A stretch of DNA of 64,000 nucleotides. Origin: Acidobacteriota bacterium (GTDB taxonomy: Bacteria > Acidobacteriota > Vicinamibacteria > Vicinamibacterales > CAVVIG01). Of this stretch, positions 23,727 through 24,744 are shown one piece after another; positions within the stretch are counted from its first letter, which is position 1; every line of letters starts with the position of its first letter. The stretch spans positions 191-64,190 of the forward strand of contig JAFDVO010000019.1 in NCBI GenBank assembly GCA_018268955.1, written 5' to 3'. The position numbers and the translations under genes were made by a program. Below the pieces are notes generated by a model. That model saw nothing but the letters and a program-made list of their open reading frames with translations. It was not told where the DNA came from and did no database searches.

Positions 23727-24671
23727 TCAGCCGGTCGCCCCGCCGAGGCGTGCCTCGAGGAAACGTGCGACGGCGGTGATGGTCTCCGGCAACTCGCCGG
23801 GTCCAGCAAACCATTCTAGATCAGGCTCTTTTCGGAACCAGATCATCTGGCGTCGGGCGTAATGGCGGTTCTCCGTCGCGATGAGGGCGCGCGTCTCCGC
23901 CTCACCTCGCACGCCGTGCAGGTGCTCCAGCGCCTGGCGGTACACGAGCCCGCCAAACGGGCGTGCGGTCTCCGGCACGCCTCGCGCGATCAGGCCGCGC
24001 ATCTCGTCGAGCAGGCCGCGCTCGAACTGCTGGTCGACCCGGCGGGCGGTCCGCTCGGCAATCAGTTCGGCGGGGATCCGCAGGCCGATCGCGATCACGC
24101 GCATGCCTGCAATGGGCGATACCGTGTCGGCGAAGTGCGCGGTCAACGGCTTGCCGGTGAGGAAGTACACCTCCAGCGCGCGAATCATCCGCTTCCGGTC
24201 ACCGACAAGGATCCGCGCGGCCGAGGCGGGATCGATGCGCTGCAGCATCCGGTGCAGATGTGGTGTGCCCCGCTCGTCCGCGCGCTGCTCGAGACGGGCA
24301 CGAAGGGCGTCGTCTGCCGGCGGGCCGGGGAACAGGCCTCGAACCAGCGCGCGGTAGTAGAGACCGGTGCCGCCCACGACGAAGGGCAGGTGGCCGCGCG
24401 CGTGGATCTCGCGAATCAGCCGCGCGGCGTCGTTCGCGAACTGCGCCGCTGTGTACACGTCGGTCGGCTCCACGATGTCGATGAGGTGATGAGGGATACC
24501 GCGACGCTCCTCGACAGCGACCTTATCGGTCCCGATGTCGAACCCGCGGTACACGGCCGTGGAATCGCAGTTGATGATCTCACCGCGGAACCGCTCGGCC
24601 AGTGCGAGAGCCAGCGCACTCTTGCCGCTCGTGGTGGGCCCGAGAATGGCGACGACGGTGGGGTCAGGCAC
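23727..24671 (-). CDS. miaA: tRNA dimethylallyltransferase
   Basis: 314-residue enzyme that prenylates A37 of tRNAs reading UNN codons. P-loop GPTTSGKS (residues 11-18), NCDSTAVYRGFDIGTDK, VGGTGLYYRALVRGL, and DRKRMIRALEVYFLTGKP match MiaA. The C-terminal ENRHYARRQMIWFRKE is the tRNA-contact motif. GTG start 24671; its first 8 nt overlap the end of the 26-codon microprotein gene upstream. Confidence 0.95.
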   Translation of the reverse strand: MPDPTVVAILGPTTSGKSALALALAERFRGEIINCDSTAVYRGFDIGTDKVAVEERRGIPHHLIDIVEPTDVYTAAQFANDAARLIREIHARGHLPFVVGGTGLYYRALVRGLFPGPPADDALRARLEQRADERGTPHLHRMLQRIDPASAARILVGDRKRMIRALEVYFLTGKPLTAHFADTVSPIAGMRVIAIGLRIPAELIAERTARRVDQQFERGLLDEMRGLIARGVPETARPFGGLVYRQALEHLHGVRGEAETRALIATENRHYARRQMIWFRKEPDLEWFAGPGELPETITAVARFLEARLGGATG

Positions 24672-24744
24672 CGAGCCGGAACAGCACGAAGAGCGTGAAC
24701 AGGATGACGAGCAGGGCGAGTCCGATCTGCTGGGACCGGTTCAC
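24664..24744 (-). CDS. 26-residue single-pass membrane microprotein
   Basis: Short gene too small for routine calling. GTG 24744 overlaps the stop of the TonB-like gene by 4 nt (GTGA) and its TGA (24666-24664) overlaps the start of miaA by 8 nt. The product has a polar N-terminus (MNRSQQ), one hydrophobic helix of about 17 residues (IGLALLVILFTLFVLFR region) and LGA at the end. The two-sided overlap strongly suggests real coupled translation, not chance. No family recognised. It could be a small membrane partner of the TonB-like protein, or a coupling leader for miaA. Confidence 0.6.
   Translation of the reverse strand: MNRSQQIGLALLVILFTLFVLFRLGA

Follow-up and report, generated by a model that had tools for sequence, protein, structure and literature searches.

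What is the 26-residue open frame wedged between a TonB-like gene and miaA in an acidobacterial genome: a gene or an accident of overlapping sequence, and, if a gene, what might its product do? In the window, that is, the whole stretch of 64,000 nt that was analyzed, the frame runs from a GTG start at 24744 to a TGA stop, down to 24664. Its GTGA shares the TGA stop of the TonB-like gene in a 4-nt overlap, and its final 8 nt, GTGCCTGA, hold the GTG start called for miaA. The first-pass annotation had placed the frame here with both overlaps and had left the strand unstated; position and overlaps are confirmed, the strand is minus, and both flanking genes are as it had named them (Table 1).

Table 1. 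Coordinates of the microprotein gene, its parts and the flanking genes in the window
Feature	Position	Strand	Basis
Microprotein gene, 26 aa, MNRSQQIGLALLVILFTLFVLFRLGA	24664..24744	minus	Read directly; codon-level conservation; profile match in own genome
TonB-like gene, upstream, 326 aa	24741..25721	minus	Pfam TonB_2 PF13103 (E=1e-10), TonB_C PF03544
miaA, downstream, 314 aa	23727..24671	minus	MiaA TIGR00174 (E=4e-76)
Conserved N-terminal motif R3-x-Q5-Q6-x-G8	24721..24738	minus	Column counts in order and phylum
Predicted transmembrane helix, residues ~7–22	24679..24726	minus	Hydrophobicity by inspection, window and relatives
R23, conserved basic residue at helix end	24676..24678	minus	Present in 42 of 50 sequences from the order

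All residues of the window peptide are hydrophobic or small except N2, R3, S4, Q5, Q6, and R23, a composition consistent with one predicted transmembrane helix, and hydropathy gives one hydrophobic segment of membrane-spanning length in this peptide and in its relatives. In the window's own genome the profile matches this locus only, with E=1e-5 to 2e-5. The window protein has zero family matches in Pfam and NCBIfam, its relatives having only weak, scattered ones; FixQ/CcoQ (PF05545) is the best Pfam match in five of 48 members, at a non-significant E≥0.02. No sequence relative was found in PDB, where the best match, at E 8.1, is a helix of cytochrome oxidase subunit 2. The microprotein is thus a family absent from Pfam, NCBIfam, and PDB, and literature searches covering acidobacterial small proteins and miaA operons turned up nothing on this gene. 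Individual members may be listed in catalogs of small open reading frames such as GMSC (PMC11364881) and sORFdb (PMC11796252).

The annotation had proposed to look for the same frame in related genomes and to study its conservation at the codon level. In Vicinamibacterales, the order in which the nearest named miaA relatives place the window, the TonB-like protein used as a query has a match in 58 of 60 genomes searched, and in most of those genomes the gap between the TonB-like gene and miaA contains a related small frame. Out of 80 named loci in the order, six have no usable TonB–miaA junction; among the remaining 74 assessable loci, an intact relative is present between the two genes in 55 and absent in 19 (our own tally, with profile matches accepted down to E of about 2e-3). 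The order consensus is T/N-R-x-Q-Q-x-G-L, after which come a run of hydrophobic residues and the closing R. Among 50 order sequences, the motif positions are occupied by R in 45, by the two Q in 48 and 44, by G in all 50, and by L in 46 (for the closing R, see Table 1). The overlaps, said to lock the frame between its neighbors, hold in this genome and in a few relatives but are not conserved: in the order, the microprotein starts from –4 to +199 nt relative to the TonB stop and ends up to more than 1 kb from miaA.

Twelve of the 19 absences are clean losses, with the TonB stop less than 75 nt before the MiaA P-loop, and in two more a glycosyltransferase-like gene lies between the TonB-like gene and miaA (glycosyltransferase-2-like, recognized by eye, L122:2242-2983 and L128:2047-2929). 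Derived or decayed remnants survive at L164 and L175. A frame broken in relatives that keep the flanking genes would have spoken against a gene; loci that have the frame have it unbroken, and most loci without it have cleanly closed the gap. The one decayed copy seen, at L175 (~2830–2965), has an internal stop inside the motif. As the losses are repeated, the microprotein is not essential everywhere, and it is dispensable in several lineages.

Two further features of the order loci were observed. In eight of 70 TonB-like genes (loci L101–L180), the first residue is aligned to ATT, ATC, or ATA, not to ATG or GTG; possible reasons are the use of rare start codons and a true start located elsewhere. 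Loci of Vicinamibacterales also occur in the public bins L101, L112, L113, L138, L145, and L179, whose titles name Bifidobacterium, Acidimicrobiia, Cyanobacteria, or Woeseiaceae; these records look mislabeled.

Codon-level comparison demonstrates that this short frame (less than 50 aa) is a real gene under protein-level selection. In-frame dN/dS is 0.23 for pairs less than 25% divergent and 0.35 for pairs less than 35% divergent, compared to 0.94–1.18 and 2.4–3.5 in the other two frames. Third codon positions account for 50% of mismatches, the maximum in 200 column shuffles being 44%, a count that gives no exact probability, since sequence pairs are phylogenetically non-independent. Shine–Dalgarno sequences are seen at ten of 48 microprotein starts vs. 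one of 70 TonB-like starts in the same loci; as the latter also go without one, a missing Shine–Dalgarno sequence was dropped as a clue.

Short frames are also found 5' of miaA outside the order, e.g., MNRKQIFSILILLTLLLIILIIQIEM, LKRKQLLGLLIILSLVFIYLVIRASLGR, MDRQRSQLLGIIILAAILLLIACIRYYFKLG, and MRFSRNQIIGALILLVAIWLVIVIRLIIARG. In the family as a whole, peptides are 25–32 aa long, and the consensus R/K-x-Q-x-x-G precedes about 16 hydrophobic residues, with R/K after them; the Q of R/K-x-Q is the sole invariant column among 48 sequences from the entire phylum. At 85 loci outside the order (including one of the same class), the density of frames combining the motif and the helix is 2.1 per kb within 150 nt of the MiaA P-loop, vs. 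0.066 per kb further upstream and 0.020 per kb on the other strand, so that such frames are approximately 30 times denser beside miaA. When a profile was built from other lineages only and run against 5380 frames, the order's copies were the top matches (best E 3e-10); hhalign comparison of the order set with the other-lineage set yielded 96% probability. In the whole-genome profile search outside the order, 31 of 37 matches at E≤0.005 lie on the miaA strand, no more than 500 nt 5' of that gene, some of the matched sequences having been part of the profile. About half of the sampled genomes have zero matches at E≤0.5, which mixes true absence with the limited sensitivity of so short a profile. 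The microprotein is single-copy in the genomes checked; profile matches in G141 and many weak ones inside long frames were excluded as copies. A longer version ending in GWWR and further residues, recognized by eye and less certain, is present in one family (L089, L192, L214, L215).

By these sequence comparisons, the microprotein is conserved across many Acidobacteriota lineages, usually directly 5' of miaA. Homology throughout the phylum is judged from a hydrophobic peptide in which about 25 residues can be aligned, and composition may contribute to it. The initial suggestion of a genuine unannotated microprotein of the membrane type is therefore backed both by codon-level conservation and by recurrence in the phylum.

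The gene neighborhood is more variable than the peptide. The upstream gene is TonB-like in Vicinamibacterales, and in other lineages it encodes a DUF4388 protein (PF14332) or a SpoIID-like protein; the latter is confirmed by Pfam at L224 only, while L047-like loci are assigned by the GKGWGHGVGLCQVGAFGMA motif, the L047 fragment having zero Pfam matches. In one family the upstream gene encodes a HinP1I-like nuclease. Downstream genes in other lineages resemble hfq and hflX (recognized by eye), and sometimes the microprotein and miaA are separated by the gene of a small membrane protein whose tail is zinc-ribbon-like and whose Pfam matches are sub-threshold; in several lineages, genes of this kind lie directly 5' of miaA (L052:2361-2690, L060:2345-2776, and L045:805-1149).

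The link to miaA can be broken. At L102 and L112 foreign genes separate the microprotein from miaA, and it still lies 1–23 nt behind the TonB-like gene; no gene inserted between these two was seen in the order loci. In G071 a copy follows a SpoIID gene on a contig other than that of miaA, and in G233, G166, and G204 copies overlap or trail the HinP1I-like gene, with miaA 2.9 and 3.6 kb away or on a different contig. In G158 the link is also broken, and the copy has no same-strand gene just upstream. Given the varied upstream genes and the breakable link to miaA, the microprotein gene acts as a self-contained unit within a conserved neighborhood, and, as far as gene context can tell, it does not require the TonB-like protein or MiaA.

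The HinP1I-like genes are of separate interest. The chromosomal proteins encoded at L221:755-1606, L222:716-1558, and L227:666-1490 match R.HinP1I (PF11463) with E from 4e-56 to 2e-59 and have a hydrophobic, signal-like N-terminus, and their genes overlap the microprotein start by 4 nt. Export of a restriction-type nuclease, which these N-termini suggest, would be unusual.

Several explanations of the frame compete. GC-rich DNA yields many open frames, 113 of at least 20 aa in 9 kb, and a chance frame in such overlapping sequence could be suspected; the probability of this is negligible, as it is contradicted by selection at the codon level, by enrichment beside miaA, and by the reciprocal recovery of copies with profiles. 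An upstream frame acting in cis, its translation coupling or attenuating that of miaA and the peptide itself being irrelevant, would explain the position directly 5' of miaA in most lineages, and such coupling is compatible with the overlaps of 4 and 8 nt in the window. However, it is the amino acids that are conserved, not the spacing or the overlaps, and copies occur away from miaA. Moreover, MiaA-modified tRNAs read UNN codons, and these constitute only 12% of the microprotein core, with UUA and UUG accounting for only 22 of 304 leucine codons; hence, there is no sign of a MiaA-sensing leader. With neither conserved coupling geometry nor UNN enrichment observed, we consider a miaA leader or attenuator unlikely. 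Just as unlikely is a role specific to MiaA, or to the miaA–hfq–hflX gene group, as a membrane tether or a regulator: genomes without the microprotein retain miaA, and copies persist with miaA kilobases off or on another contig, even though miaA is the commonest neighbor in the phylum and other lineages have genes resembling hfq and hflX downstream.

The annotation had suggested a modulator of a neighboring membrane protein, with the TonB-like protein as the one to test. The close spacing behind the TonB-like gene at L102 and L112, despite foreign genes before miaA, and the lack of insertions between the two genes agree with this proposal, but outside the order the upstream gene is of the DUF4388, SpoIID-like, or HinP1I-like type, and several order genomes retain the TonB-like gene and miaA without the microprotein. 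As a specific claim the proposal thus lacks support, and we assign it a rather low probability. Taken together, the changing neighbors, the unconserved overlaps, and the copies away from miaA are a poor fit to both a TonB-specific modulator and a miaA leader peptide. Finally, type I toxins are of comparable size and also consist of a single hydrophobic helix, but a stable neighborhood among housekeeping genes over a phylum and the single copy in the genomes checked make a small hydrophobic toxin of the type I toxin–antitoxin kind very improbable.

We regard as probable an independent single-pass membrane microprotein, serving as a small accessory helix of a larger membrane partner. This reading is based on the hydrophobic helix, the basic, Gln-containing N-terminal edge, and the size, which is that of known accessory one-helix proteins. 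The peptide would insert in the inner membrane as one helix. There, as an accessory subunit or a modulator, it would act on a larger membrane protein or membrane complex via helix packing and the R-x-Q motif at the N-terminal edge of the helix. Membrane insertion, orientation, and the accessory role are all features that we infer from sequence. Helical periodicity of conservation is borderline (p ~0.06), and hence a packing face is at most suggested; the net charge is slightly C-terminal-heavy in the order and N-terminal-heavy outside it, so that charge does not settle the orientation.

A bolder and tentative possibility, in which we have less than even confidence, is that this ancient phylum-spanning family of ~25–32 residues supplies a core membrane complex with a small subunit or regulator that has so far been missed, the peptides being too short to be annotated. 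If the accessory reading is true, a conserved membrane microprotein unlisted in the libraries searched is present in a phylum that is widespread and poorly cultured, and cultured Acidobacteriota would permit direct tests of its translation, location, and partner. The R-x-Q-Q-x-G motif, together with the position upstream of miaA, provides a simple rule for finding it.

Precedents for one-helix accessory proteins of this size are CydX, AcrZ, and KdpF (PMC4325964, PMC7267776, PMC11539335). CydX is the small subunit of cytochrome bd oxidase (PMC4325964). The microprotein is similar to it in being very short, in having one hydrophobic helix and broad taxonomic conservation, and in being easily missed by annotation. 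On the other hand, the CydX gene sits with its partner oxidase genes, whereas the neighbors of the microprotein vary and are not respiratory, and no sequence match between them was found. Proteins of the KdpF and FixQ–CcoQ type are short single-helix accessory subunits and resemble the microprotein in length, in the single helix, and in the proposed accessory role, but no kdp or cco genes are present in the neighborhoods examined. AcrZ is a one-helix modulator of the membrane protein AcrB and is encoded away from it; therefore, the position of a gene need not name its partner. Compared to the microprotein, AcrZ is 49 aa long, has a different sequence, and its partner is known (PMC7267776).
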